The notes under the pieces were generated by a model. It made no database searches. It was given only the letters and a program-made list of their open reading frames with translations, and had not been told where the DNA came from. A stretch of DNA of 64,000 nucleotides from Daucus carota subsp. sativus (lineage: Eukaryota > Streptophyta > Magnoliopsida > Apiales > Apiaceae), in the NCBI RefSeq assembly GCF_001625215.2, contig NC_030384.2, positions 37,420,390 to 37,484,389 on the forward strand. The letters are read 5' to 3'. Below, piece by piece: positions 1,743 through 61,300 of this stretch (position 1 is the first letter of the stretch; each line of letters begins with the position of its first letter). A program made the translations under genes and the position numbers.

Positions 1743-3290
1743 AATCCAGAATACTAACCTCGTCTCCTCGTCCTTGTGCATTCTGTTCAACAGTAGTTAG
1801 TTCTTGGTGAGATGAAAACTGGATGTAAACATTTCTTCCCCTGGACATAGTAGTCAGATATTGAGCAACCAATCAAGATAAATGAAACAACACACTATAC
1901 ACATGGGAAATGGAAAATAGAGTGTGGTTTTAATAATACAAACTGAAAACATACCTTATGCTCGGCTGAACATTTGTGTAGAATTGTAATGCATTCACGG
2001 CTGTAGTAACATCTTGCATTTGGAGAAGAGCCTGCACCCGAGGATCCAATATGCAACCAAGTTCGTAAATAAGTTCATTGCTAAACCCTTCCTGGGCCTT
2101 GCTAAAAAGAGCTCCTTTTACATGACAGCAGAGAACATACCTGATTTTTTGCACGAAGCATCACCAGTTTGGTAATAACTCCAAAAGGCTGAAACAGCTG
2201 AAGCAAATCATTCTGCAGAAACAACGTCATATTAATATTATCAGTATGAGCAAACAATATTAGTTATATATAATATAAGACTCAAGTATTTCCGGTGGAT
2301 CCAGGAAGCAAGTCTAAGATCCCAAGGTACACCCCACTATAGGTATTAAAATGAACCTGGGAATGCCAGCAAACACACTGTATATATACATGGAGATGTG
2401 ATAGTTGATCATACTTCCAACCACCACGGGATATTTAACACTTAGATAACTCATTGTAGAATTGTAGAGGTGATGGTAATCCTCCAAGGACTTTGAGTTA
2501 ATTGTTGCTCCATTCTTTTATCAAATAGAACACGTTTTATGTAGTAAAAAACGTTTACCGTTTTTCAGCTAAACATGAACCTCAATTGCACTGAAAATCT
2601 ATTTGTTCGACCATCGACTATTTAATTTTTAAAACTTCTCAATAATAAACACACAAAGACCTAAACTTTTATCAAAATAACCACTTACAAACATTATAAT
2701 CAAGACCTGGAAAATACACTCAACTAAAGAGAAAGAATATACCTCAGAAATCTCATGGCCCACATTGCGCACATGGATAACTTTAGAAGGCTCCGCCATT
2801 TGAAAATTTTCCTAAGTAAAAAAGATATCATTACCGTAGAACCGGAATAAATAAACATTCAATAAATAATTTAAAAATTATTTCCAATCCATCCATAACA
2901 ATAAATACAATGTAATTGTAGCTTCGATACACCAATAATTTTTACGAATTTAATTCTCCGGTACCACGGGTATTCATTCATCGAGGTTTAACTCAGTACA
3001 CCGAGAAGCAACATAACGCAGATTATCTACTGCCTCTATTCTAAATCATAAAATACATGAGATTAAATTCCAAAGAAAGTACGATTAAGCTGTGAGTGTA
3101 TCGATAGTGATATCTAAAAATCAATTAAGTGTTCGCATCGAGAGACAACACAAGAGAGTTGAAGTAAAAGATTATATGAATATATTTGTGTACCTCCGGC
3201 GATGATTGTGGTGTCTCCGGCGTGAATCGCTGTTGATGTTCACTCTTTCTGTTCTGGTTTTTAGGTCGTCCGGCGGCGCCAATTAAAATT
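1743..3290 (-). CDS. PTB3: Polypyrimidine tract-binding protein (PTB3-like), 5' part, cut by the left window edge
   Basis: PTB proteins are nuclear and cytoplasmic RNA-binding proteins that bind pyrimidine-rich tracts and control alternative splicing. The minus strand gives four coding exons with clean GT-AG borders: 2799-2743, 2212-2141, 2031-1955 and 1840-1759, 96 codons in all, starting MAEPSKVIHVRNVGHEISE. RNP2 of RRM1 is IHVRNV; then come NDLLQLFQPFGVITKL, ALLQMQD and the start of the linker (VYIQFSSHQELTTVEQN). The start ATG at 2799-2797 lies 12 nt inside exon 2; a non-coding first exon seems to end at 3194 (GGAG|gtac) with its intron ending at 2812. A TATA-like run near 3300-3306 suits transcription from about 3275. 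The next expected exon (PNRILLVTIHHMLYP in homologues) was not found before position 1, so intron 4 is at least 1.7 kb and RRM2-4 lie outside. The family call is from remembered homologues and is strong. Confidence 0.9.
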
Positions 3291-4923
3291 GCTACGTCAT
3301 ATATATCTCTTCGCTGTATCTAATCTATCACTTTATTACTCGCACTATTTTCTGCCTCCCACACATCACATAATTATTATTGCCCTTTTTTCTGTAACTT
3401 AACGTTTTATTTTTGTTTTACAAAAATTATTATCTTAAAAAAATACAATCATTATTTATATCATTATTTTTAAGATATAATTTAATTTAAAATATTATTC
3501 AATAAATAATTATATTATATAAAATTAATTTAACTACAATTTTAAATATTATTTCATACCAAATATTTATATTATTAGAAAAAATAAATAAATATTTATA
3601 ACAGTTCCAATTAAAAATATAAAATGAGTATTTATTAATATAATCTGATATTAAAAATTACTTTGTGGTTAGAATGAGATTATCCTAATATTAGTTATAT
3701 TTTATACTATAAATTAAATTACTTTTTTGTCTCTCTACAAATATTCGCTTAAAATATTATTTGTAATTTAGATCATTCTTTTCAAAATTTGTTATTAAGT
3801 TCTGAGAAATCACAACACCCATGTTTTTATTAATTTTGATACAAACATGTTCTCTTTAACTAAGTTTGTATCAAGTCCCGTTTATATCGACGGTCATGAT
3901 AATATTCCGTCAGACGAATTATTTATGAGAATCACGAGGTTATAAAACCGACATGTACAATCTCAATCTCAGATAAAGATAGTCGATTTCGTTGTTATGA
4001 TCAATGTGGTACGTTTAAACGGGTATATAATCTATCTTGTATTGTTCCTGACAAAGATGCTAAGTCTTATTCAAATAATTAGTATACCAGTCGAGGGTTG
4101 TGTTCAAATGAAGTTGAAAAGGGGAGGTCTATAACTGAATTTGTGAAAAAATAAAAGTCTACTACAAACACAGTCTTATATTGCTAATTGTGACATCGGT
4201 TGTAATCTTTTTCCATAATGTCTACAAGATAACTAACGATGAGAATATGATAATAATTTTTTTAAGTGTAACGAACTTCAATATCCATGTGTCTTATTAT
4301 TATAGTATTTTAATTTATAAAGCTAATATATTGTTTATCTATAAATAATCTTGAAAAAAATAAATTTATATTAATCAAAGGATAAATATATTAATATGTG
4401 TCTACAAATATAGTTCGAGTTATCATATCTAAAGCATACAATTAAATACATACAAAACTCATTAACTAATCGTATGTCTATTTAAAAGAGGTAACAAATT
4501 TGGTATCTGTTGTTGACTTGTTTTAACAGAGGACTCGAATACTTTATATCTCATCGGTGTGGTGTATTATAAATACCCCTGTTTTACTCGGCTGGCGTCC
4601 TTGTTTGTGCGCTAACATCATTTATAACATCTCAACATCACAAATGAATATATATAGGATTCATCAATGCAACATTAGTTTATACCAATATCTCGTATAT
4701 CTCTAAAACGTTTGATCCAATAGTATTTTTTGACAAATACTTGATCTTTGTTAAAGTCTTCTGAACATAATCATGATTTTGTTATTTTTATATTTTCTTT
4801 TAAGTTGTTTCCTGCTTAATTTTTTTTTCCCATTTTGTGCAAGTTGTTCTATTTTCCTAGATTTCTATCAACTTTCTATGGAAACAAATTAAAATATAAA
4901 CTTCCAGCAAAGATGCATATTAT

Positions 4924-13234: not shown

Positions 13235-13291
13235 GATTATCCAAATAAATATTTCAACATAGTACTTATTACATTAGATCATGATAAATTA

Positions 13292-13719
13292 GAACAAAGT
13301 TCCATGTAGTCCACATATTTACCGTAGTACCGTAGACCACGTATGTTCTGCAACTATATAATGACATAAAAACATTGCAAAATGTGTTATTTTGCAAATC
13401 ATGTTCTATAAACATCATTATTTTGTTAAAAATTTTGACAATCCTAAACATTCTACAAGTTAAATAGTGAAAAACACATTATTCTGCAAAACATGTTAAG
13501 TTTGCAGAACATATTTTCATATTACAGAACATATGTGTTCTACTTGTCGAACATAAATGATTTTCAATATTTTTCATGAAATAGTGATATTTATAGAATG
13601 TATTTCACAAAATAACAAATTTCATACATTTTGCCATCTTTTTATGCCATTCTATAATTGCAGAACATACGTGGTCTACGGTACTACAGTAAATATGTGG
13701 ACTACATGGAACTTAACTC
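13292..13719. mobile_element. Mutator-like foldback MITE with 10-bp target duplication
   Basis: The element is flanked by direct repeats TGATAAATTA at 13282-13291 and 13720-13729. Its ends are inverted: AAGTTCCATGTAGTCCACAT on the left and its complement on the right. The complementarity continues with small indels to about 13460 and back from about 13540, so nearly the whole 428 bp can fold into one hairpin with about 170-bp arms. A 9-10 bp target duplication and long terminal inverted repeats starting with G fit Mutator-like elements. No transposase is present. Confidence 0.8.
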
Positions 13720-13739
13720 TGATAAATTATTATCTTAAA

Positions 13740-14500: not shown

Positions 14501-16250
14501 CGCACTTGAATTGCAGTAACGGCGACTAGAAGAATTCAATTGAAGCGCGTATGATAAAGATTAGGGTTTCTCTCTTCTTTTTCTTTTTATTTTTTAATTT
14601 CAAAGTCGTCGGCTTTGTTGTGGTGTTTGATTTTTCGTTGGTTAAGTTAGTGATAAGCTAGGGAAAGATTTACATGAGTAAACAATGACATTGTAAATTC
14701 TATCTGTTGCGGAAAACTATTGTATGCGGATACTATGTAGGTTGTGATGAGGAGTTTTATTCATTTACTCTCGGGTAAGTCTAGTGTTGTGTAGTCTTAG
14801 TATTTTCCTACCAGTGTCTTAGAACAAAGTATTGAAGTTATATACTAATATTAAAAAATAGCAATCAAGAGGCAGAACTAAGGTGATGTTTGTCTTAACT
14901 AGATTTCTTTCGGTAGCTAAATATGTCGGAATTTGTTTGCCGGAACTTCTCTTTGAACTCTGTGCTAACTTTAATGTCAAATTATGTAGCTAAAAGTTTT
15001 ATATAAGGTAGTTTTCTGATTATCTAATTTAATCGCAGGAGGAGATCAATGAGGGAGATACTCTGTTGGGATCTCTGGGGATTCATAGGATCTTATATGT
15101 CCATAAAACACTGGTTTTTTACTATGTATTATGTTTCAATAAGTTTGTGCAGTAGCACAGGGACTCGATTATTATGTTAAGTTCAAAGTCATATTCTATT
15201 TTTAAATTTTAAGGTGCTGGTATTATAGATTTGGAATTGCTGGATAAGGATATTTCTTGTCATTTGCAGTTTGTTTATCTTATGATTGGATTTTATTAGA
15301 GTAATAAACAATGGTGAAGATTTTATTAGTCTTATTGATTCACTCGCTCTATTGATGGAGTTTCTTCAGACTCCAGCTATTCTCTCCTTCTGCTGGCAAA
15401 CAATAACAGCGACTCAATAAACCAATCTTTGAGTCTCGGAACAAATTACCAATTGGATACTTAAGATTCATCTGTGGTTCAAACAGCAGTGATTTAGGAG
15501 TAAGCAACTCCTGTTACTGCAACTCCAAGTGAGCGTCATTTAGGAGTAAGCAAAACAGAGGAGGGGAAACCTTATCATATGGAAAGTCGTGCGGCTACTT
15601 CTCAAGAGAACCAACCTGTTACTGAACTACAGTTCAAGTCATCGTCGAAGCAGATGTTTCATGCAAGCAACCTGGGGCTTTTCCAAGACTATCCCGAAAT
15701 GCAGGAAGACATATTCACTTTTGACAAGGTTATAGTTATAAATTTAGCTTCCCGTTCGTTGCGCTAATACAAAAGAGGTGCTAAATCTGGCACTCATATG
15801 TGCCCAGAAAACTTGGTCTAAAGCTAAAACATGAAGTAATCATATTGTGTGATATAAAGAGTTTATGCCATTATATCTGGAATAGGTGAAATGTTCTGAA
15901 TTGTGTGGAGCACATTATGCAATTTTAAAAAAAGGGAGGGTGGCTGGGTCTAATGAATCTCGGGGAATGGAACAAAGTTATAGTGATCTTTTAAATTTAA
16001 CTACTAGTACACACTTAATCAAAAACTAATTATTTTAAAAGTCTGTTATATTATTCAATCTTATTAGTTATAAAAGTCTGCTAAATTATCATTCAATTAA
16101 ATTTATTAGTTTCTTGTCTAACCAAAGGGTTTCCCTTTGGTTAGATTTTCTTTTGTAGTTTTATTGATACTTCTACTTTATTTTATTTTTTCTTTAATTT
16201 TGAGAGATCATCTCTTTTGTTTTGTTTTTAGTAGACTTACTATCTTGTTT
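14500..16250 (+). other. Unassigned transcript-like stretch with an open exon at about 15508-15766
   Basis: GATTAGGGTTTCTCTC at about 14568-14583 is typical of plant 5' leaders. A frame open from just after a stop near 15505 to 15766 reads ATPVTATPSERHLGVSK, then MESRAATSQENQPV, then FHASNLGLFQDYPEMQEDI. A 16-nt piece (ATTTAGGAGTAAGCAA) is repeated directly just upstream and breaks the frame there. Composition is protein-like, but I recognise no family. It may be one exon of a gene or a captured fragment. Confidence 0.3.
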
Positions 16251-16354: not shown

Positions 16355-16564
16355 CAGGTTATGTCGGAAGCGAGCAGTTCGTGCCTTCTTCTACGGGTTT
16401 TCTTTTCTCATTCATTTAAGCTTTATTGTCTAAGCGTCCGGAGTTATGCTTGCATGACTTTCGGTTAGATGATAAACTTTCTTGAAAGAAAGAATTCCCG
16501 GATGCGGTTTATTGTATCTCGATACAATTCATCTACGTATATGTAGACCTTACAAAAAAAAAAA
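16355..16564 (+). mobile_element. Poly-A-ended repeat, probably the 3' tail of a non-LTR element (copy 1)
   Basis: This stretch shares ordered blocks with 25975-26158: TTTATTGTCTAA, TCTTGCATG or GCTTGCATG, CGGTTAGAT, and TTTTCTTGAA or TTTCTTGAA. Both copies end in an A-run of about ten. A shared tail ending in poly-A is the mark of a LINE or SINE 3' end. No ORF remains. Confidence 0.5.
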
Positions 16565-17405
16565 CTAGGGAAAGATTTTGAAATGGAAAAAAGAGGGTCT
16601 TGCGTGGCTTTTTTTTGTGTTTTTTAGCGATTTAAATCGATGAAAATGTGATGATTCTCTGCCCTCGAGTTGGTGATGGATTTCACGAATCAGAAATAGA
16701 GTGACCGAGATTTCAAATACAGGAAAGTGTCTTTTCCTTCTGTTTTCTTTTCTTCTCAACCCTCGTCCCCAATACTCTTTCTTTACTCCATTAATAATAC
16801 TGATGTACTATACAGTTTTGTATATTTGTCATGTTCCATTTGTTTTGTCCATTGATCTTCCCTCATATGAGCAGAGCAGAGTAGCTACAACATGGTAACA
16901 GGAGTATAGGGGCCCTGTTTGCATGAGGGTTTGAGCTGACAGAAAAAAGAGATGGGCATGAAAGAGAATTGGGAGGAATACGGCAACAGTATCATAACGT
17001 ATCATGTTTTCAAGATAAGCTTCACAAGCCCCTGTTCAATTTATCTATATCTATATATTCTTAATGAGCGCAATGCCCATTTAGATAATTACCCACGGGT
17101 TACCCATGTTTTACCCGATTCATTATATAATTCACCTATCTTGCATTACCCGTTTAGATTAAAAAACCCGATGTATAACCGACTCCACGAGCTCATTCTG
17201 TTTGCTTTCCTTATTCACGGGATTTGATTGCTTATTTATTCTGCTGTCCTGTAATTTTGGCATTCATATATTTCAACATGGAAAGTGCATGTAATCAAGG
17301 ATGCGTATTGTTATTTTTCAAAATTCAAACTGATTCTCTTTGCGTGCTATGTAAGAGTCTTTTTGTGGGTTGGTGGAAAGATTTTGTCCAAGAGTTTCAC
17401 CAGCC

Positions 17406-20400
17406 ATGGATTCACTTTCGCAGCAGCCAGTTAATAATTGTTCAAGCTCAGGTTTGTACCCAAGAGGCATCTCTTCCGACAGTATTTACCAATGTTGTAC
17501 TTTGCTCTGTGTGTGTGAGGATCGTCTATTGTGTTTGATGTGCAGGTCGTAAAAGAAATAAAGAAAATCAAGCAGAGGGTTCACTTGCTGGTACTGGTCA
17601 AACTATAGCCTTGCTTTTAAAATAAGTCGTGTCTGTTTATAGTAGGATCACCATGTGTTTGTGTTTATAATTCACCGTTGCATGATGTTGCAGGTAACCG
17701 TCAACAAGGGTCTGGTAGTGCTCTCGATTTATTTTTGCAGAGACACACTGAAAACATTAAGAAATCCAGAACTGCTGGGAATTCGTCATCCTTCGACAAT
17801 ATCACCTCAGGAAGAAATGGTATTGATGCACACTCATTACAATTTCTTGCTTATTGGTTTTTGATGGCTTACAATGTGTCCAACAACTGTCATTTTTTAT
17901 TGTCCCAGCCACGAATCGTGTTGCTCTATTGACAGTTGATCAAAATGAATCCAATCGATATATGTCGGATTTTCTTCCTAACATACAATTTAAACTTGAT
18001 ACAATTTACATTCTGTTTCTTTTTGCATCGTGTGCTCATTTCATCATGACTTGGAGCAAGGCCGTTGTGTGCATAATCAGTAAGAGTTGCAGCAAGGCCG
18101 TTATAACCCCGTTATCTTTTTGTTGCAGCAAACAAACGTTCTCCTTTGTGCAATGTTGATCTGAATTCTGCTCCTGGCTTTGTGTTGGATTCTGCCGTCA
18201 CGGGTAGTTACCAAATAACCTCTGTTTGAGTCCATTTTAATTGTCCATTTTAATAATCATTATTTCCCGTGGTAGAATTTGAATCTGATGATTAACTTTT
18301 GAATCAGGTGTCAGGCGTAGAGGTCGTGGACCAAGCATTGAGATATTGTTTAAGCATTCCAAGAGTTTGAGCGCCTCAGGTTTTTTATCCATATACCTTA
18401 ATTTATTTAAACATGTGTGATTTCAAGGGCAGTCACACACAAGTCAACACATCTGATGCTTTCCACAAGCAAATGCCACATTCTCTCCAAGTGATTTGTG
18501 TAATAGTACGCTGACCAGCGTTGGGCATCACGCATCACGAGATCCCAATAGTGCCACGGGTATGAAAAAATTCTAACACCGTCTCGCATTGAGACTTGAA
18601 TGCTCCTGTGTGTTTCGGTATTTTATTTTTACACCGACAATTCCGAGACAATGACTCTGGATCTTTCCTTTTCTGTAGCAGCTTCCAGGCGTTCTCCGTT
18701 GTGCAGTGTCGATCAGAATGCAGATTCTCGCTTTGTGTTGGATTCTACCGTTACAGGTACATAGCATTTAAGCTCTTTTTAAATCCATTTTAAATGTCCG
18801 CCTTTATACCACAGATTATGTAAATTTTTAATTTGTTGTTGAGCGTGCTAAGAGAACACTCTGCTGATGAAATTTCGAATCAGGTGTCAAGCATCGAGGT
18901 TGTGGACCAAGCATTGAAACATTATTTAAACATTCTAAGAAATTAAGCACCTCAAGTTATTCATCCTGAAAAACTACCTTTTATTAAACACGTGTAACTT
19001 CAAAGGCAATCGTACACAAGTTTACACAATCATGCTTTATACCACCTTGATATCTTGCTGAGTTATTTTGGGTGGTTATTAGTTCTGGTACTACCTTGAT
19101 ATCTTGCTCAGTCAGGGTTTTTTGAGAGAATTAAGTGCGGTTGAGGAATGTTATTTTGCTGGTAATTGAGTTCAGGACCTGTAAGTATTGTTGTACCTTG
19201 GCTTCCCATTTTTTTATTCTCAATCATTTAAGCTGGCCAAGTGCGATTAGGATAGTAGTTCAGTGGTTATATAATGGTTGCTTGCTTTGGTTTTTCTGGG
19301 ACTTATGTTGTGTGGGTCATTGGTATTGCTCAGAAGTGATCAGTGCATGGTCAGAGTTTTGGGTGGGTTGCATGGTAGATTCAATTATTTGGAATGGTTG
19401 GGGAGGGTGCAATTGTCTCTGGCCGGAAGTTTTTGGTTTTGTTTGGCTTGCTTTTTATTTTTTTATCCGTTGGAGGACATACATATTTATTTTCTATAAT
19501 TAGTTGATCGTTTTGCATCTTTGAGTTTGTTCTTAGAGGTTTTGTTTTCCAGAGAGGAGTCCTCTCTTTGTATTTTTCTCTCTATGTTATAAAATTTATA
19601 GAAGGTGCCGCCATCATTTACCGAAAAAAAAAAGTATGTGTTTGATTACTTTTGTAGAAATTAATATTGTATGTGGCGTTATTCTGTATTTTCTTATCAT
19701 CCATGTCGGGATTCAAGAATTTAATCTCTGATTCCTTGATTTTACAGGTCTTGGTATGAATTCTAATCTCAATTCTTGCGGTGAACAACAAAATGAATTA
19801 GAATGCTATCTCCGTCCTTAAACGAAGATATTATTGCATCTTGACTTTCTTGGAAGGTTTGTCATTTTGATCCTACAATCTTGCATCTCATCTCTTTTGC
19901 ATTAAAAATGTACATTAACATGTAGCAGACTTATTCAAACATTAACGATAATAGACTTCTTCAAACTTTATTGGTAGTGACCAGAATTGTCTAAGGTGTA
20001 TAGGTGCTCTACGATTGGTTGCTTCTGTTGCCAGTGCATAAGCAAAATAATCTGTCTAGCAAACTTGAGGTGATTGCTGTTATAGAAATGTTCCACTATC
20101 GCCTCTTATTTCACAAAAAATGGTTATTTCTTCTTCTAGGTCATCTCTTGAATCACTTTTAGAGTTCTTCTAGCTTATATTTTACGGTTTCTTCTTGCAG
20201 AAATCGGATCGAACTTTGTCACCCTGGCTGCGATGTATGGTGGTAGCCAGAATCATAAAAGAATGCACACAAAAGTGGTGGTATTCCAAGAGTTAAAAGC
20301 TATTTTATGTTAAAGTTTTAACATTACTTCACAATTGTTTGCTGCCTATTGGTTTAAAATCTAATGTTTGATAATCTCAGTATATAGTATAATATTGATA

Positions 20401-22633
20401 TCTGTAGATTTATATTATGCATGTGTGGTTCTTTCAAGGTTAGTTTTCACTTAATTTTTGATATCATAAAAGTTTAGTTCAATTATCATTTTTTGATTTA
20501 CCAGTGATTGCTTGCACAATCAGATTACAATGGATTTAACAGCCGCTTGATTTTCACTTGATATTGTATTTTCAGGTTAGCAGTATGTTATCCGTGAATG
20601 CTTTTCTGTTAACATATGAACTAATCAAGCCTAATTGCAGCTTTCTCATGTTGATTTACAGTTATGAGGATAATAATTTTATGAAGAAACTGTTTTTTTG
20701 TCTAAAATGAGGCTGCCTCTGATGGTATCTATTGTATAATACTACACGCAGTACAATAAAAAGTTGGCCGGATAACATTTTATGTGTCACTGAATGTTAC
20801 ATATTTAAATCTCAAGCCTCGCATCAAAGAGCTTACTGATATCATAAATGCACATCATATATTATTTTACTAATAATTTGAAATTCATACAATCTATGAT
20901 CATGATTGTATTTTTTTATAAACATACATCATTAATATAATATTGCATATTGCAGAGAGTGTTAGGACTTAGGATATAGATTTATGTACATATCTCTGCA
21001 TTCTGATATATACTTTTTGTTTCTTCCCTTATCCCTACAGGAAGAAGTCCTCTTGGCAAACTTGATACCAATGTGTCTCATAAGGACAATAGTAATGTTG
21101 TGGACAATGTCATGGTAGACAGGAATTATACATAACCAAAATTACACTTGAGGAGGTATTCCTTTATGACAATCTGATATGGTTTTTAACTAACTGAATA
21201 TTCACCATTTATCTGTTGTGTTTTAATTTCTTACTAGCAGGTCATCTACCTAGATCTACTGGTACAGCTCTGGATAATTTTCTGAGCAATAGGGCAGAAA
21301 GGATTCAAACGAAAAAAACTGATAATCAAAATCAGGATGCCCAATCAATATCTTCAAACAATTGCGGTATGGTATGTATTTATATTTACTTTATTTTGTG
21401 TTTTTATTCAATTTATTTAATTAAGTTGCTGTTAGTTAAGTAATTGGAGGCTTCAATTAAGTTAAGTTTGTGTGTGTGTGTAAATTGATTGTTACTGCCT
21501 GCTGGATACTATTTGTGTGCGTAAATTTATTTGCTGGCTCTTTGTTGAATTCTGCTGTCAAAGGTACAAATCTATTTAGAGTGTTCTTATCGTGTGTTTC
21601 GTTATTTGATTACATTTTCTATTCATTTAGCCATTTCATGATATCAAATTTACACTAGACAAGGTGGGATCAAAATTACACTTAATAACTAATTTTTAAT
21701 TGTTTCTTTAATTTTTTGGAGCAAATTTAAAGCCAAAGCCAAATGAGAGCGAAAAATGGAGAGGCGAATGAAGGAATGACCGGTTTAGGTTTTTATTCAG
21801 AACTTGGTGCTGATTTACGATTTTTATCTATTTTCACTGTTTTCAAAATTATACAGTATTGCGGATATATTATATTAGAGATGCTCTGATGCTTATGCTT
21901 CTTATCGTGCATCTCCAATATTTTATCTGACATATTTATATAATTTGGTGGGGATTTTAGATAGAAGCCGTGCCTTTATGTTTTGCCTCTTCAAATTGTT
22001 TTATTAAATTATGAAGTAGGTATTATCTTTCCGAACCACACTCACAATGTGCTGGCAAAATGTAGAAGTCCCGTGTTCAAAATTTATCACAGTGTGTTTA
22101 GTTATTACAATTGTTAATCTCATTTTATTATCTAGGAAATCACAGTTTGACAATTACAGTTGTTCCTCTCATCTTATTCTCAATTTATTACAGTAGTTCG
22201 GTAATTGCTTGATTTCCCAACAGGTGTACCGCGTAGAGGACGTGGACCAAGCATCCAAACTTTATTTAAACAAATAAGTTCATCTAGCAATTCAGGTTAT
22301 TCACAGAACACAGACTTTTGAATGTCCTGTTATTATTTTTTTTTCCCCGTCAAAGTATTAGAAAAACACATGTATGTAGCTCATGTACACATGTTCTATG
22401 CTCTGATGTTTTTAAACAGCAAACCCTACATGCTCTCCAAGCGAATTGTGTGAAAGTACAATATCGAGTTCTGGAAACTGTACGTCAAGTGATTCTAAAA
22501 GCAACACAGGTATGTACAAATATCATATTCACGTTGTGGAGAAGCAAACCTTAACCGTGGTGATTTGTCTTCAGGTGTAAAGCGTAGAGGTCGTGGTCCA
22601 AGCACCGAAACATTGTTTAAGAAACTTAGATGA
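17406..22633 (+). CDS. Unrecognised multi-exon gene made of repeated phase-1 exons
   Basis: I do not recognise the family. Exons inferred from splice sites and frame: A 17406-17451, B 17546-17590, C 17694-17819, D 18129-18203, E 18308-18379, F 18679-18756, G 18884-18955, H 19748-19780 (weak), I 21041-21091 (donor uncertain), J 21241-21366, K 22224-22295, L 22420-22509, M 22575-22633. They join without a stop into about 314 aa, starting MDSLSQQPVNNCSSSG and ending TLFKKLR. Every internal exon is phase 1-1. Three exon types recur. E, G, K and M carry VxRRGRGPSIETLFK. D, F and I carry RSPLxxxDxN, and D and F also share FVLDS. C and J are both 126 nt and carry SALDLFL/TALDNFL. The protein is basic, Ser-rich and without membrane segments. 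It may be the N-terminal exon array of a Helitron gene or a captured host gene. Confidence 0.6.
18129..18955 (+). repeat. Direct duplication of an exon pair (D-E and F-G) with introns
   Basis: Exon D with E and exon F with G are copies about 550-575 bp apart. Shared DNA includes TTTGTGTTGGATTCT in D and F and GGACCAAGCATTGA in E and G, and GAATCAGGTGTCA spans the acceptor in both. The introns between them also look related. A decayed third D-type copy ends at 21563 before GTACAAAT. Confidence 0.75.
19050..19632 (+). mobile_element. Probable 5'-truncated non-LTR element in an intron
   Basis: Sequence ending TTTACCG followed by about ten A (to 19632) resembles the tail of a plant LINE, with the 3' UTR-like text CTCTCTTTGTATTTTTCTC before it. 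A 122-codon open frame at 19135-19503 is rich in Trp and Leu and matches no domain I can name. The stretch lies between exons G and H. Two copies of TACCTTGATATCTTGCT (about 19043 and 19093) sit near its left side. Confidence 0.4.
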
Positions 22634-25500
22634 TTTAATCAATATAATCTTGAGAAAAGTGAAGAAATATAACTCTCGGATCAAGTGAGTATAGCTTGGA
22701 ATGTGAAGAAGTGAGTATCCTGATGCTACTACGATTAAGGGAATCCACTTTTACAAAATAATGAATAAAATGATGGTTAATGCAATGTAACAGCTAACAC
22801 AATAAATTTGGAAATGAACAAAATTATCAGCCAACAAAATTAATAGGCAACATACAATGTCATTCATAACTTAAAAAGGAACGAGAACAAAGAATCTAGG
22901 AGCAAGATGCAAACTCTCTTGAAGACGTGAGGCAAGAACTGTAAGTTTACACAATTCTGATATGGTTCATGTGCTCATACCAGTTTTCAAACATTGACTT
23001 AGTGAGGCATAAAAATTAACCTTTCTGTGTTTGTGAATGTAATGGTTGTGCACTTATGATAGGGTGACATGACCAGATGGAAATTCAGCAAACTATGTAC
23101 TCTAACTAGGCATGTGTTATTTATAAGAAGACACTTTTTATCTTTTCATTTATCAGTCAAATATCAGTTGGTGTAGAATATACCAGTTTGTTGTAATTCA
23201 TGCTCTGAGAAAGGATTGCTAAATGTTTTAGATGATGGGGAACAATTTAAATAAAGAAGAGTTGGCAGCTTTAGATACTATTGGTGCAGGAAAACTATTT
23301 CATCATGGCAAGAATCGAGACATTCCAGGTGCAGCAGAGACCTTCCGCTATTAAGCAGGGGGCAGCAGATAAAATACATGGAGATACACTGAAGATTAAA
23401 ACTTGGTGCTGATTTACGGTTTTGCAACGGGAGGGAAATGATTGGGACAACGTGTAAAAAGAATAGTGTAGAGTGTGAGATCCTTTTTTTCATATGACAT
23501 GCATGGCTTTATTTTTATATATGATGATTAATGTAAAACTGAGCCTGACAACTTTTAATACTGTCATCTACTTACTGGAGTAGATTACATTACATAGACT
23601 GTCTTTTTTTGAGACCACTTGACTCGGTTGTCGACTGAGATATATGTTTTCATATTATAACCTGTTACTCAGCCATGTGATTGGATTTGAGAGTTCGACG
23701 TGTTTATGAGATGGGCTCGGAAGATAGTTTCATTCTATTGCCTGCTATGCGGTGCAGAATTGCTAGATAAAAAGCTTTCAGATGGTGTTTGCTGTAAAGT
23801 TTCAAGTGGATCACCTTCTACAAATGAGCAGCGTGCAGTCTTAGCACTGGTTTTGGAGATATTTGGGCTGCAACAGTTATACTTGCTGTCTGTTGGTGTT
23901 TCTCTTCCTCTGCATCATGCAAGTGATGAATAAATGTGATTGTGTTTTTTATATGACTAATCTGGCATTCAAAATTTTTAATAATTTTTAATTTGAGACA
24001 TAGGAGCCGTGCACCGATTTATTAGGTAGGCTATATGTTTGAGCAGCTCTGAGTTTCCAAAGCAATAGCAATTCTTGGATCTATAATAACAAATGTTGCC
24101 GCGTTTCTTTAACAACTAAGAGTTGGAGTATGATAAGTGCAAATTTCAGGATTTTCTACATTTGCAGCCATCCAGGAATTCTGTAATATCTAATAGGTCA
24201 CAAGAGAAATGTGTGAGAGTTGAGACAACAGCCAGCAAGAAAAGAAGTAAACCTCTGTCCTGATTTATATAAGGTTTCAGGCTTACATCTCCAACTTCAC
24301 GCTCTGATCATCTCCTGGTGTTATCAATTTCTTCTCGGGGAAAGTCCTAACATCTCTGGAAACACTCTCACGTTCCTGGGAAGTATTTATCTCTCAAGTC
24401 CTATCTGAACCAGCAGTTTTTTCATGTGCATCGACCAAATCTTGAGATTCTCTGCTTGAAAGAGCAGCAAGCAAAATTTCCCCATCTGACATTAACCGAG
24501 ACATTAACTAAATGAGATACACCTCCTCAGGATTTTAACTTTAAAACAGAAGTGACCATGCTGGCATATGTGTTTAGAAATTAAATATTACTCATATTTA
24601 TATTTCACCAGCAAGATATCATCAACTATCTACCTGCCCAGTCATGTACAGCAACAAATTGAACAAAATAAATCAACTGGCCTGATTCATGCTAATAATA
24701 TTAAAACTTTTTTATTAAACATAACATCAATTATAATAAGACTAATTGGATTAAATACTGTAATCAATTATTTAGTGTTGGTAAGTTTGGATTTTTATAT
24801 TGTATCCCAAATTAATTTTTTAATGATGCAGTACCTCTAAATATACATAATATGTTAAACAAAGATTAAATATCTAATGTTAATATTGGTTTAATTTATT
24901 TTTCCAACCTCATAAAAGAGATTATAATTTTTATTTTAAATAATATACTCTCTTAAGTTAATATTTTTATAAGTAAATGTATTAGTATTATTCTTATTTA
25001 TTTTATTCCAGATTTTTACTTACTTTGAGCTTTAATTTAATTATAGAAATCAAAAATTATATGAAAATCAAGAATTATAAGATAATACTGTTAAATTTTA
25101 AGAAATAACCGTTAGAATCAAACATAGAATTTTACTTATCATATTTAACAAAATTCTTAAAATGAAATTCCAGATTGCCTTACAATTAAATTTAAAATTT
25201 TCTGTAGATATAACCTAACATTTGATAAGAGGGAATCTAAATTTTTTTAAAAATGCTATAATATATAAAAATTAATAAATTAATAAGTATAACTCAAATA
25301 CAAATATTACTTTCACTGTGTTTTATTAGCATAAATCTCAATTGTTAACGCCTTAACGGTGAATAAATATATCCCAAATAATCAATTTTTTATTGATGCA
25401 TTACCTGTAAATATACATAATATACATAATATGCTAAATAAAGATTAAAAATCTAATATTAATAATAGTTTAATTCATTTTACGACCTCATATAATGAAA
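22634..25500. other. Non-coding remainder of the putative Helitron
   Basis: No gene is recognised. A 77-codon ORF at 23700-23933 (LLCGAELLDKKLSDGVCCKV) may be a captured exon but matches nothing I know. AACTTGGTGCTGATTTACG at about 23400 repeats a piece at about 21804. The right third is very AT-rich and includes the diverged direct repeat at 24800-24930 and 25370-25495. Confidence 0.5.
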
Positions 25501-25662
25501 ATTTAAACAATTTACCCGCACGCGAAGCGTGGGCATAATTCCCTAGTTACAATAACTTTTGTAACAGGATTTACATGTTATGTTATGTTCTCTCGTTTAG
25601 ATTTCATTGCCCCTCTACGTTTTGACTTTGTTGTTTAGATTCTTTTCCGTTTTAATTAGGAA

Positions 25663-25974: not shown

Positions 25975-26158
25975 TTTCAGGATTCTCGGAAGAAAACTGG
26001 TTTCTTTTCGGACATTAAAGTTTTATTGTCTAAATTTCCCCGGTCATCTTGCATGTCCGACGGTTAGATAATAAGTTTTCTTGAATGAAAAAATTATCAC
26101 GGTGAATTGCCGATCCATATTCATTGAGATTTATTCTCATTTTCAAAAAAAAAAACAG
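25975..26158 (+). mobile_element. Poly-A-ended repeat, probable non-LTR tail (copy 2)
   Basis: Related to 16355-16564 through TTTTATTGTCTAA, TCTTGCATG, CGGTTAGAT and TTTTCTTGAATG, and ends in ten A. It lies just after the minisatellite, which may be part of the same element. Confidence 0.5.
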
Positions 26159-52300: not shown

Positions 52301-55300
52301 GACTTGTGTAGTTCAATATTTAACAAAATATGAGAACTGAAAAATTAAACAATTAGTAACCAAGAGACTTAATCTTAGTTCCATATTTATGTTAAATATG
52401 AAATTTTGTGCGAAGAAAGCTAAAAATTATACAATTAGTAATCAAGAGATTTGGTCTTAGTTCCATATTAGATGATTAATTTTCTTTAAAGATTATACAA
52501 TTTTTTTTTTCCACATAAAGATTATACAATTAGTAATCAAGAGATGTGGTCTTATTTTCATATTAGCTGATTAAATATGAAGTTTTGTCTGAAGAAAGTT
52601 ATAGGTAAGGAACCGAATTAGGACTTTTGTTGGCTTAGGAGTAAGGACTGTAGAGAGAGTATTAAGTAAAAGCTATTATCTTTGAGGCAATTTTTTTTTA
52701 CAATGAATGAAAAAATGTATTTAAAATTAATCACAATAAATTTTTTTAAAGTAAAATAATGAATATAATTATAAAATTATTAAGGGAGGTTTTAAAGTAA
52801 ATTTGTAGATATCTCGAAACATATGTTTTTGTAAGAATTTAAATATTTTATTGTATTTCATAAAGGACTTTAATGGGTGGGAGATTGATGACAAAAACAT
52901 TAGATGGACGGACCAAAAATAGAGAATAATGGAATTTGTCTGTTCTTTTGATTAGTTAGGAGAGTTGTTTAAAAGGTACTTGAGGGTGCACCTTTTGTTG
53001 AATGCATTGCATAACTACTTTTGTGTAATCAGTTCTTAGGAGAACTCAAGTATAGTTGATTTCGTTTATTGACTCAATTTTGTTTTATAATTTATTTGTT
53101 CTGCTGGTTGCTGTTGTCACAGAAGTTGTTTCTCATGTCCTAATTTTAGATATGGTCAAGAATAAAGGACTCATTCCATCAGCACCGGGTCAAATATTTG
53201 TGCAAAGAAAGCAACTAAAGGCTATAATAGAGTCTCTTCTTCCAGCATGCACAGAACCAGATATAAAATCTGGAGAACCTTTTACAGCTGAAGCAATAAT
53301 AGCGAACCCCCCTGCTTATGGTGAGCTTTTGTCTTCTGTAGTATCTTCTGTATATATTTATTCAGTATTCAGTTAAACTTGCTATGTTTTTTTAACTCCT
53401 TAATGTCTGGGGACACTACAGATCATGTAAGTAATGATGTTGTAATTGGTTTGTGATTTTATTAACTATTTGAGCATTTTAAACTCAGTGTTACAATCCA
53501 GATTCTTCCAGAAATTTCTGAAGAAGATATAAAACTCTAATCTTGTAAATGTCTATGCTGGCTGACAGGACATGCACATGTTGCTGAAGCTCTTGGTGTA
53601 CCCCTTCACATATTCTTCACAATGCCTTGGACGTGAGTTTAAGCAACGTTCTAATTGCATGCACTATTTTAATGTTTGATCTCCTAGGTAGACAACTAGA
53701 CATACTTCTTCTAATATTTGCAGCTTACTGTATACACATTACATTTTAGCTATGTTACAAGTGGACTTAGAAACAAGGAAATGTTGTAGTAAAAACAATG
53801 AAAAGATAGGCTTTGGGTTAACAACAGAAATCCGCTAGCCTTAGCCAACTCGACCACCGAAGACCCACTACTCCCTAATTTTTCAAATGCAGGAGAAGGG
53901 ATTTGTAAGATAATAATTTTAATCATCACTCGAAAGTTTCCCAATAATAGAAATTAACATTTTCTTATATAGGACTAAATCCCTAAAAGTTCAGCAACTC
54001 GTAATAATCTTAATAACAAAATCTGATCTAAACAGCATCTACTTGTATATGTTAATCTACAACATACTTATGATCCTCATAATGCACTTATCTATATAAT
54101 GAACTTAATAATGCATTACAAATACCAATAGTAAGATAAATGTAAATAAACGATATTAGTTTGCTTCTGCATCACTTATCTTCTAATATGAATTTAGAGT
54201 TTCCTGCTCATTACTTCTACCACATAAGGCTATGCATCATAAAAGCAAAAGCTATGATGTTTTGTTGTGCCTGTGTGTACTTTGGCAGTTATATTGACAA
54301 GTTACCTTTTATACTGAATAGAATACTGATATTAGGACTATTCTATGAGGCGGGAATATATTTATATAGAGCTCACTGTAACCACATAAAGATACAGAGA
54401 AGAGTTATTTTTTTTTTTGGGCTTTCTTAAAAGATACCCAAGTTGCAATTTTTTTTTATAAAAAATGTGGTGCGACCTCAATTACAAGTATTGCAACCTG
54501 AAAAGCAACTGCTTTTAACGAGCATAACAACCTCATATGCAGCTTTGACCTCATTTTCGGAAAAAAGTTTGAAAACATGTTTGTAATTTTCCCTTTTGTA
54601 TTTTTATTTTTTGATGTATATAGTAAATAGAGACAGTCCTATGATTTGAATCTATGACTTCAACAAATAAGAATGCACTTCAATCTGTAATGACCATGAT
54701 GATCTTAAGATTAAGTTGGCACACTTACAAATATCTTCTTGCAACTACTTGTCTGTTACTGGATCTCAAAACCAGTCTGCTTCCTTCAACTATAATTTCT
54801 TTTTACCCCCAACAGAAAGGAAGCTTTATACGCAAATTAGAACCTGGCTTTTTGGTTCCAAGATGAAAGACTTTTAGCTTATAAGCTAGCTAATTAGCTA
54901 GTCATAAAAACATGATACTAGTTCTTTGAGCTATTTTGTGCTTTTTGGTCAAAACAATATCAGGTTCTAGACGGTCATGCCCTTTTTTTAATGTCATGTG
55001 CCAGATAAGAGATTGCAAACCGAAATATGTCTCCTGGTGGAATGTTTACTTTGTTAATACAAGCTTATAATTCTCTTTCTTTCTTATGTTATTATAGTAT
55101 ATTGCTCCCTCACATATATTTTGTATAGGCAGGCCAACACATGAATTTCCACATCCACTAGCACGTGTTCCCCAGAGTGCTGGTTATTGGGTAATTTAGT
55201 CGCTACTCTGCCAACACCTAATCTTATGTGTTTTCGCAGTTATAGAATTCTCATTCATAATTCAAGACTAATTGCTTTGTTCATGTTTTTTTTTTTCTGT

Positions 55301-58300: not shown

Positions 58301-61300
58301 GATCTCATCTCATATTTGATTTTTGAAAAAAATTCTGTTCTATTATTAATTCCTTGTTGTCTCTATTAAATTTGGCAATGTTTTCATATATATATATATA
58401 TTAGAGACTCATGTAATATTGTATCGATGTGCATATATTAGATCTCACTTAACTCTTCTGCTTCAATTCATATGTAGCTCCACAAACTTCGGATAGTGTT
58501 TTCTTCCTGGAGGATTGCCCTCATGATTGGCTGTTTCCACAATGTTCTGCTGTTGTGAGTGTTATTTTATTTGCAAGAAGATTAACCATTCATTATTTAT
58601 AAACTTTAGTTTGCCATTTGTTAGCCAGTATCAACTTATCTATGTTGATTATCCAGGTTCATCATGGTGGCGCTGGAACAACAGCTACAGGATTAAAGGC
58701 TGGGGTATGGTTCTGAATATTAGTTATCGTTCTGTTATCATGATTAAATTATGTATTAAAAAAATTGAATCTTTATATAACATATTTACCTGATAGTCAA
58801 AATAATGGTCAAATGGAGGAATTTAGATGTTGGTATAAAAACTCAGGGGCCTGGCAATAGGTTGATTTTTTTTTTTTTTTGCATAATTACATGCTACTTG
58901 AAAAACAGGTTTTCTTCCTCTTTTTCTTGACTCATTAAATATATATCTTTATTTCATCAATTGCAGTGTCCGACAACGATTGTTCCATTTTTTGGAGATC
59001 AATTTTTCTGGGGTGAGAGAATACATCAAAGGGGACTGGGTCCTGCTCCAATCCCTATCGATAAACTCAGTGTTGAAGCCCTTTCAGATGCTATAAATAT
59101 CATGCTTCAGCCAGAGGTAAGGAACATATGTCTGTTCATTGGTGTTTTTCCATGCAATTTATTAGTTGCAAGATATGCCTACTGTATCACCTAGCATGTT
59201 CCTAAAGAAATTGTTATTTCCTCTGCTTCTTAACTGACTCTTTCAATTTTATCTGTGTACTCATGTCAGACACTTAACACTCGACATAGGTATGGAGCTC
59301 AACATGTAATTTTACATAAAAAACATTCAAAATTATAAAATATTGTCGAGTACAACAATAGGACATATTTTATGTTGGACATGTTAGGAGTTGTTCCACA
59401 TATAGGAGACTCAAATATCTAGAAATAAGCAGCCAGATAATTTCAATAGAATGAGGCCTTTTTGAGATGTCTAAAAACAAACCCGTGCGGACTCAGCCTT
59501 AGCAGGCCCAACAAGTGGTTTCAGAGCTCCAGGTCGGAATGGTCCATAACAATCTCACACGGGCTCTGGAATGGGCTTAGGGGAGCCAGATCACACACCG
59601 GGAGGCAGTGTTCGGCAAGTGTCGAACCCGATGTGTGATAAGGGAGAGTGTTACGAGTTTTCTCACATTGATTATGGGAGTGGCAGATAGCTAGAATATA
59701 ATCAACCATATAACTTTACTAGCACGAGGCCTTCGGGAGGTGCCCAAAAACAAACATGTGTGGACTTGCCCCAAAGTGGACAATATCATACCATTGTGGA
59801 GTTAGGCTTGCTACATTTACAAAAGTGGTATCGGAGCTAGGTTGTGACGGTCCGTACCAATCTCTGATAGGCTCTAGAATGGGCCTAGAAACAGGCAGGT
59901 GGCCAACCAGGATGGGCTTAGAGATGAGACAGGTGGGCCTTTCTTTATGGGCCTAGGGGAGCGAAATAGCCAAATGAACTTCCAGTATGGGTCTAAGGGG
60001 AAGCCATATCACACTCAGGGAGACGGTATTTGACAGGTGTCGAACCTGATGGGAAGGGGGAGATTGTTAGGAGTTATCCCACATCGGTTGTGGGATGGAC
60101 AAATAGCTAGAATTTAAGCAGTCAGATAACTCCAGTAGAATGAGTCCTTTTTGAGGTACCCAAAAACAAACTCGTGCAGGCTTGGCCAAAGCGGAGAATA
60201 TCATTCTATTGTGGAGTTAGACTCGCTTAGCAGGCCTAAGCCTAATAGGACACTTTTTATGTTGGACACTTCTACCCGAGTTGGGTATCACTTTTGCTGA
60301 TGATAAATTAGTTATATATTGTTGGAGGCAAATGCCAATTTGCATTACCATTTAGGGATGACAATTTCTGTTTAAGGGACCAGAGGCTCTATATGGCACA
60401 ACTCAACCACGTTGAAAATATGGGCCGACCCGAAAGTTATATCACTTATAAGATCTAAGCTGAACATGAGCAATTAGAATTTGGCTGAAGCTGACACAAC
60501 CTGAAATTTTCAGATGCAGTAACCAACTGTTTCACAGTTTCTAATCTTAAGGTTTTACAAGTTCACTTTGTACAAACATATGCAGTTAGACAAATAATTA
60601 GAGAGAACTACATAACTTAATTGGAGGAAATAGAGAATGTATGTTGATATACTAAACTAAACTAGAAAAGAACATAATAGAAATTTAGAGTTGAAAGGAA
60701 AATGAAACATTGGGGTTCGTAGCGACTATTATTCATGTTGTCGATCCCTTGCTGAGTTAGGTTTAATACTATAATAACAAAACAAGTACATAAGTTCAAG
60801 ACTTTCAACTCCTAAAGTGCCACTTAAAAGTTAAACATTCAGGGCATCTGGGTTGACACAAATTTGACCTGGTTTTTTCCGTTCAAATTATGGTCAAATC
60901 CTAATTAAGGTAGTTATAAATACTTGCCCCAATTTTTGTTAATTTGTGTCTGCTTACCTTGTCGCATATCTCCATTTCTATCACCAAGAAATTGGATGTA
61001 TCTATTGATCAATAGTTCAGAAAACCATACAATGGCAGTACTCTGACATCTACTATATGGCCCATGTTAATCAGTTACCCCCTTTCAAACATGTATTGCC
61101 AAATAAAGTAATTGTATCTGTTGGTGAAGCTTCTGGTTTACTTGAAAGGATCAACTTGCCATTATTATGTTTATTTTAATTTTGTCCTAATCTTTTTTGG
61201 TTAAATAAAATTTGATGACCACTGTTGGTTTACACTTTATTTTACATAATGGTAGACTACTGTTTTCGCGCTCTTGAAAAGGAATCACAATTTTGCTGGG

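Follow-up and report, generated by a model that had tools for sequence, protein, structure and literature searches.

An array of short recurring exons

The window analysed here is a 64,000-nucleotide stretch of the Daucus carota subsp. sativus genome (C4:37420390-37484389). Its plus strand carries, at positions 17406-22633, an array of short predicted exons that we assign, with a probability of about 0.92, to the 5' coding part of a Helitron rolling-circle transposon, lying inside an 8.5-kb copy at 17050-25546. Twelve of the exons (A-H and K-N), with GT/AG borders, would join into a single frame of 315 amino acids that closes with a TGA stop at 22631-22633; the splicing drawn here is a prediction. 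Exon A (17406-17451) contains the start codon (MDSLSQQPVNNCSSS) and exon B (17546-17590) contains the tripeptide KEN within the sequence RKRNKENQ. The other exons fall into four recurring types, and the copies of each type are alike in length and phase. The ALD.FL type is represented by exons C (17694-17819) and K (21241-21366), both of 126 nt, and the RSPL type by two intact copies of 75 nt, exon D (18129-18203) and its duplicate G (18682-18756). The SPS[DE]LC type comprises two 90-nt exons, F (SPSDLC, 18470-18559) and M (SPSELC, 22420-22509). Four copies make up the RGRGPS type: exon E (18308-18379), its duplicate H (18884-18955) and exon L (22224-22295) each span 72 nt, while exon N (22575-22633) carries the stop codon. 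An initial annotation of this DNA had already recognized the four RGRGPS copies and the two 126-nt ALD.FL exons, and our analysis agrees on both.

On exon profiles built from these very copies, the exons score 60-122, whereas no score in six simulated sequences of 64 kb exceeds 28. Their codon usage, under a model trained on six other open reading frames (ORFs) of the window, outscores every one of 1000 sets of random stretches free of stop codons, and the predicted frame is the best of the three in 9 of 14 exons. Splice sites are expressed below as percentiles that rest on approximate matrices; on this scale the acceptor of exon F is poor (35th percentile) and the donor of exon H is weaker than most others (81st percentile).

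Several members of the array break the frame or have decayed. Exon J (21041-21114), also of the RSPL type, is 74 nt long when its donor at 21114 (90th percentile) is used and shifts the frame; use of the donor at 21155 (97th percentile) includes a TAA at 21133-21135, and the frame survives only if the exon is 51 nt long, which calls for a donor at the 66th percentile. The peptide of exon J resembles those of D (P 0.0064) and G (P 0.0016); in the DNA, exon J was not alike to D (P 0.33) or G (P 0.73). A possible exon I (19748-19856) keeps the frame as a 33-nt form with a donor at the 91.5th percentile, and with the stronger donor at 19856 (98.9th percentile) it includes an in-frame TAA at 19819-19821. 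It showed no likeness to exons J, K and M, the only three with which it was compared (P 0.29-0.90). The initial annotation had joined exons A to M with every internal exon in phase 1-1 and had counted three RSPL exons. This description holds for A-H and K-N, which join in frame, and for the two intact RSPL copies, but it fails at exon J, whose better donors lead to a frameshift or a stop.

Two decayed RSPL-type exons had been overlooked, as had the two mobile-element edges at 17050 and 25546 described in the following section. The first decayed exon, at about 17909-17971, keeps an acceptor at the 96th percentile and has no donor above the 39th; it resembles exon G (shuffle P 0.001) and exon D (P 0.036). 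The second, at 21534-21563, has lost its front half and consists of the end and the donor (97th percentile), with a shuffle P of 0.001 against both D and G.

The earlier proposal that the array grew by duplication of symmetric exons is borne out by the segments D-intron-E (18117-18462) and G-intron-H (18670-19038), which represent a single tandem duplication that included the introns. Identity between the two segments is 77 and 81% in the exons and 71 and 81% in the introns. Alignments of D/G, E/H and F/M required no gap openings and that of E/L required two, compared with 2, 4 and 9 in three intron pairs; C/K required 11, and this pair (54 of 126 positions identical when left ungapped) is unusable for a gap test at the DNA level. 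The array probably grew inside the element through tandem duplication of exon-intron-exon blocks, which is tolerated because the exons are in phase 1-1, and the multiplied array is partly decaying at present.

Termini shared with dispersed relatives

Genome searches covered the 441-Mb, 11-contig genome to which the window belongs. With the joined protein as the query we obtained 73 exon matches at E ≤ 10 and 50 at E ≤ 6.1e-4; nine of these 50 lie within the window and 41 elsewhere, several of them at one and the same place. In some pairs of these places, stretches of 2.3-3.2 kb are 97-99% identical, which marks the family as mobile. A new host gene family, considered at an earlier stage, was dropped once the genome search had returned these dispersed matches.

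Homology between the window and 13 relatives (numbered with the prefix L) starts at 17042-17058 and resolves to a common boundary, A|TCTATAT, between A (17049) and TC (17050). The common 5' start reads TCTATAT.TTCTTAATG, and the 5' terminal sequence of the window copy at 17050-17074 is TCTATATATTCTTAATGAGCGCAAT. Sequence to the left is mostly unrelated or consists of a TCTATATC-repeat. By eye, an A precedes the common start in 10 of the 13 relatives; L035 has a T at this position, and the base is unclear in L018 and L011. On the right, the blast edges of L040, L041 and L044 extend up to 25548-25549. Over their final 75 nt the window element and these three relatives align, and they diverge after CTAG|T (25546|25547), a 3' end that is also found in L045. 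The text patterns used for the ends demanded the preceding A on the 5' side and CTAG followed by T on the 3' side, whereas the blast edges did not.

These boundaries delimit a non-autonomous Helitron copy of 8497 bp (17050-25546, plus strand) that lies between the A at 17049 and the T at 25547. Its 3' end comprises a 19-nt hairpin at 25515-25533 (CCCGC.C.....G.GTGGG, -8.6 kcal/mol) and the terminal CTAG at 25543-25546, 9 nt past the hairpin. A hairpin scan that required stems of at least 7 missed this end, which was located by homology. A 5' TC, a 3' CTRR, a hairpin and an A|T target are given as Helitron hallmarks in the available excerpts of PMC4683698 and PMC13286980; the hairpin should be G/C-rich, span 15-20 nt and lie about 10-15 nt from the 3' end. 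The window element has TC after A at the 5' end, CTRR followed by T and a hairpin at the 3' end, and dispersed copies with common ends and differing flanks. Between the array and the 3' end, the segment at 22825-23252 is 92% identical to L039, where it lies 3' of related exons (C5, 0.37 Mb).

Two further repeats were noted at the termini. The 3' subterminal block of the Helitron is doubled (24803-24917 and 25370-25495), and only the second copy leads to the hairpin and CTAG. Just outside both ends lie direct repeats (16399-16496 and 26001-26095, 77% over 98 nt) that perhaps belong to an older element that received the insertion.

Related exons precede Rep and helicase ORFs elsewhere in the genome

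A Pfam search of all six frames of 12.9-27.8 kb detected no Rep or PIF1 helicase in the window copy; the sole match was NDUF_B7, below the cut-off (E 0.012). As a control, the same six-frame method recovers the ribosomal protein gene RPL3 across its introns. Because no Rep or helicase was found there, the window copy is a non-autonomous Helitron.

Relatives of the exons accompany these enzymes at other places. On C1 (L008 and L045; 7.55 Mb), a PLSNIDLN exon and two RGRGPS exons are followed by separate ORFs for Helitron_like_N (E 3.1e-40) and PIF1 (E 2.2e-53), two matches that clear the cut-off by a wide margin; RepSA (E 1.8e-6) and DUF223 (E 0.0012) were matched below it. A 3' end of the same kind as that in the window follows the RepHel ORFs. 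The C1 helicase is 85% identical over 193 amino acids to the helicase of an element on C9 for which both ends are present (22855700 to approximately 22866068). In the C9 element, RSPL, RGRGPS and SPS exons precede an uninterrupted frame of 550 amino acids that matches PIF1 (E 1e-86, or 1.3e-85 in another search) and Pif1_2B (E 9.8e-21). On C2 (L017), helicase similarity (E 4.8e-52) lies downstream of exon C. The C1 element, together with one on C3, was located through the DNA of the RRGRGPSIE motif. Judged from these sequences, the motif is common to diverged elements of one genome.

Since related exons precede Rep and PIF1 ORFs at C1, the window exons would encode an N-terminal extension of the RepHel transposase, which combines a Rep nuclease with a PIF1-type helicase. 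Ser, Asn and Arg abound in the joined 315-residue protein, which lacks Trp and Tyr and which a charge-hydropathy comparison places on the disordered side; the extension is predicted to be basic and disordered. It might serve in nuclear entry or in binding to nucleic acids or partner proteins. The protein had no match among PDB sequences and none above the cut-off in Pfam, where DUF6626 (E 0.1) and CDH1_2_SANT_HL1 (E 0.26) were the matches below it, and no relative was confirmed in prokaryote and viral sequence collections. The window copy, which keeps its ends and lacks the enzyme, could now move only in trans, and any earlier movement was presumably in trans as well, through a RepHel protein made elsewhere that would recognize the 5' TC and the 3' hairpin-CTAG ends.

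Constraint on the exons and alternative explanations

Selection on the exons was examined by comparing exon and non-exon identity across exons A-D and the surrounding DNA in 12 relatives. In the three relatives most alike to the window, the two values are close to each other: 87.3 and 87.3% in L018, 86.0 and 86.7% in L026, and 87.1 and 84.5% in L019, for exons and non-exons respectively. Between L018 and the window, 9 codons differ synonymously and 24 nonsynonymously. The exons of the other nine relatives are 2-8 points more alike than the non-exons, with the largest difference in L011 (91.7 and 83.6%), and in the most distant relatives the third codon position is ahead of the other two (12/24/32 for L021). 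No gaps occur in the exons of 8 of the 12 relatives, while the non-exons have 7-23 gaps in all 12. The branch leading to the window has changes at 13 of the 191 sites in exons and at 52 of the 567 sites elsewhere. The exon changes, 13 in all, comprise 6 synonymous and 7 nonsynonymous changes, compared with a neutral expectation of 75% nonsynonymous. This pattern agrees with exons that were constrained in active elements and hardly at all afterwards; weak constraint would be compatible with it as well, given the small sample.

Several observations weigh against the assignment of the array to a Helitron. Some relatives fall short of the left edge, at 17090 (L020), 17308 (L026) and 17495 (L013 and L015), and 9 nt separate the hairpin from CTAG, a little less than the published 10-15 nt. 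Exon K finds its best matches (L028, L030, L031, L033, L036 and L037) in copies with unmapped ends, and the window element may therefore be a mosaic. In the C9 element no Rep or Helitron_like_N was detected, the remaining match being a sub-threshold DDE_3 (E 0.036), so the linkage between exons and Rep rests on C1; on C3 (L046), two RGRGPS exons were placed ahead of similar ORFs by eye only. In 11 of the 12 relatives, similarity to the window is as high in the exons as in the non-exons, or higher. Finally, amino-acid changes between exon copies within the window are below neutral. In the pair E/L, 3.5 of 11 changes alter an amino acid where 8.1 are expected (P 0.0005), and the other RGRGPS pairs gave P values of 0.005 (H/N), 0.058 (L/N) and 0.073 (E/N). 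Pair F/M has 18.5 such changes among 33 (P 0.007), and the D/G plus E/H duplication is weakly below neutral (17 of 29 compared with 21, P 0.048); the pairs D/J and G/J were left out of this test.

A rival reading is that the N-terminal part of a Helitron was adopted as a host gene, in which case the 12-exon ORF would be expressed and under selection for some role in the cell or against transposons. The open 315-residue frame with its good codon usage, the low rate of change among the RGRGPS copies, the gap-free exons in most relatives and the share of nonsynonymous changes on the window branch all favour adoption. However, exon and non-exon identity are nearly equal in the three closest relatives, the frame is broken or ended by exons J and I, splice sites are weak in F and H, and the branch signal consists of 13 changes only. 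Constraint among copies can also stem from active elements, and we consider adoption very unlikely. A different origin, in which the exons are host sequences captured by Helitrons and not a native part of RepHel, draws on the fact that Helitrons capture genes and on sister loci with host-like fragments (S4, pectinacetylesterase (PAE) and argonaute N-terminus (ArgoN) at L039; ankyrin at L028). Against capture, the exons begin within 360 bp of the 5' end in the orientation of RepHel, and RGRGPS exons stand directly ahead of Rep ORFs at C1 and, by eye, at C3; we consider capture about as improbable as adoption.

The initial annotation had likened the array to a protein growing through exon duplication, with a motif of no named family and potentially many isoforms, which would amount to a host gene family unrelated to transposons. 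The exon structure is as it was described, and the joined protein has no Pfam match above the cut-off and no PDB match. Neither a new family nor a multitude of isoforms is supported. The common Helitron edges and the position of related exons ahead of Rep and helicase ORFs contradict this view. The exons instead are part of a Helitron family whose relatives are scattered over this genome, and we regard an independent host family as next to impossible. Our preferred interpretation remains that the array is the 5' coding part of a Helitron.

Degron-like motifs in the predicted extension

The RSPL exons share the pattern R..L..(hydrophobic)D.N. Among 21 RSPL exons picked by hand, every one has the L, D and N, and 20 have R or K; the strict form R..L..[LIVM] occurs in 14 of the 21, and several copies have F instead. 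The KEN tripeptide is found in 17 of 18 copies of exon B, or in 17 of 20 when two weaker matches with NEN (L013 and L015) are counted. In the 315-residue protein KEN occurs once (shuffle P 0.04), R..L..[LIVM] twice and the canonical destruction box (D-box) RxxLxxxxN not at all; KEN together with two R..L..[LIVM] arose in 5 of 4000 shuffles. At the level of motifs, R..L..(hydrophobic)D.N and KEN resemble degrons of the anaphase-promoting complex/cyclosome (APC/C). A multi-degron host protein similar to securin or PATRONUS had been considered and was dropped after the genome search; the motifs were kept as a possible property of the transposase N-terminus.

We think it unlikely that these motifs are working APC/C degrons through which a Helitron-encoded protein would be turned over with the cell cycle. 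The invariant L, D and N, the near-constant KEN and the rarity of the combination among shuffled sequences speak for such a role; the front half of the RSPL pattern agrees with a D-box, and RSPL fits a form of the D-box with Pro at P3 and a cyclin-dependent kinase (CDK) site at P2 that is described in the available part of PMC5717348. On the other side, RxxLxxxxN is absent and the Asn lies at P10, whereas an Asn at P9 is described as essential in the part of the literature available; the D-box reading also leaves the invariant D at P8 unaccounted for. The strict R..L..[LIVM] is limited to two-thirds of the exons, the motif copies are related to one another and were collected by similarity, and the NEN matches lower the consistency of KEN. 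A broader and even less probable proposal is that the extension would string together short linear motifs (KEN, R..L..(hydrophobic)D.N and RRGRGPSIE) in an array that can be duplicated and through which the host APC/C would time transposase abundance to the cell cycle, with non-autonomous, multiplied copies making interfering decoy peptides.

Relation to known systems

Tandem duplication of symmetric exons is a general process. The window resembles it in that phase-compatible exons were doubled together with their introns, and differs in that this took place inside a transposon and the array is decaying. Helitrons and their non-autonomous derivatives are likewise known kinds of element; what is new is a member with an unusual coding N-terminus. 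According to the available excerpt of PMC13286980, the wheat Helitron Xuan-Feng/FENG8 has the same 5' TC, 3' CTRR and hairpin and a multi-exon RepHel gene, whose large N-terminal domain includes a disordered region of 264 amino acids; this is the part that the window exons would supply. In contrast to FENG8, the window copy divides its N-terminal part among many short phase 1-1 exons that recur as a few types, and no RepHel was found with it. Mothra of rice, a non-autonomous element described in the excerpt of PMC4683698, similarly keeps its ends, lacks RepHel, contains internal repeats and presumably depends on relatives. It differs in carrying two tandem-repeat blocks and a captured gene fragment, whereas the window element multiplies exons of the transposase N-terminus. 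The plant APC/C substrates PANS1/RSS1 and SWI1, as presented in the accessible part of PMC8058418, also combine a KEN tripeptide with R..L motifs, some of them repeated; unlike these proteins, the window protein lacks the canonical RxxLxxxxN, and the likeness is drawn at the motif level only.

The string RGRGPS was not found in the open-access literature searched, and no open-access text was found that joins D-box, KEN box, exon duplication and plant. Among the matches listed, no open-access text linked Helitrons to degrons or to such exon arrays. The assignment to a Helitron keeps a transposon fragment from passing as a new plant gene family with isoforms, as its 12 exons resemble a clean gene. 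It also shows that in plant Helitrons the region preceding Rep, which has received little study, can consist of short symmetric exons that duplicate and decay. The sharing of RRGRGPSIE and the exon structure make the role of this region testable.

Other features of the window and of the sister copies

Host-like pieces were observed in or beside sister copies with unmapped element limits and possibly reflect Helitron gene capture. On the minus strand of L039 there are pieces like S4, PAE and ArgoN (the last below the cut-off), and on that of L028 there are ankyrin repeats. L041 holds an ORF of 202 amino acids without a Pfam match (3080-3685). Long ORFs that look reverse-transcriptase-like by eye lie at 6237-8701 of L044, past the 3' end of the copy at C5:24.75 Mb.

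The neighbours of the element in the window are plant-like and include ROH1-like, ribosomal protein L3 and ACC oxidase genes. Just left of the Helitron, the minus strand has a perfect hairpin of 12 bp with CTAAT after it (16070-16135), possibly the 3' end of another, reverse-oriented Helitron; one such match occurs per 20 single-strand shuffles. A self-inverted foldback element at 13276-13735 is 73% self-complementary and has a 96% identical copy upstream of the related Helitron at L018 (119-564), and a palindromic element at 1249-1433 is 77% self-complementary. Repeats of approximately 240 bp (76%) occupy 59382-60227, in a region (58-64 kb) whose plus frames gave no Pfam match. Repeated segments at 52340-52601 lie inside a gene that we take to encode a sterol glucosyltransferase-like protein, with Glyco_transf_28 matched just below the cut-off.

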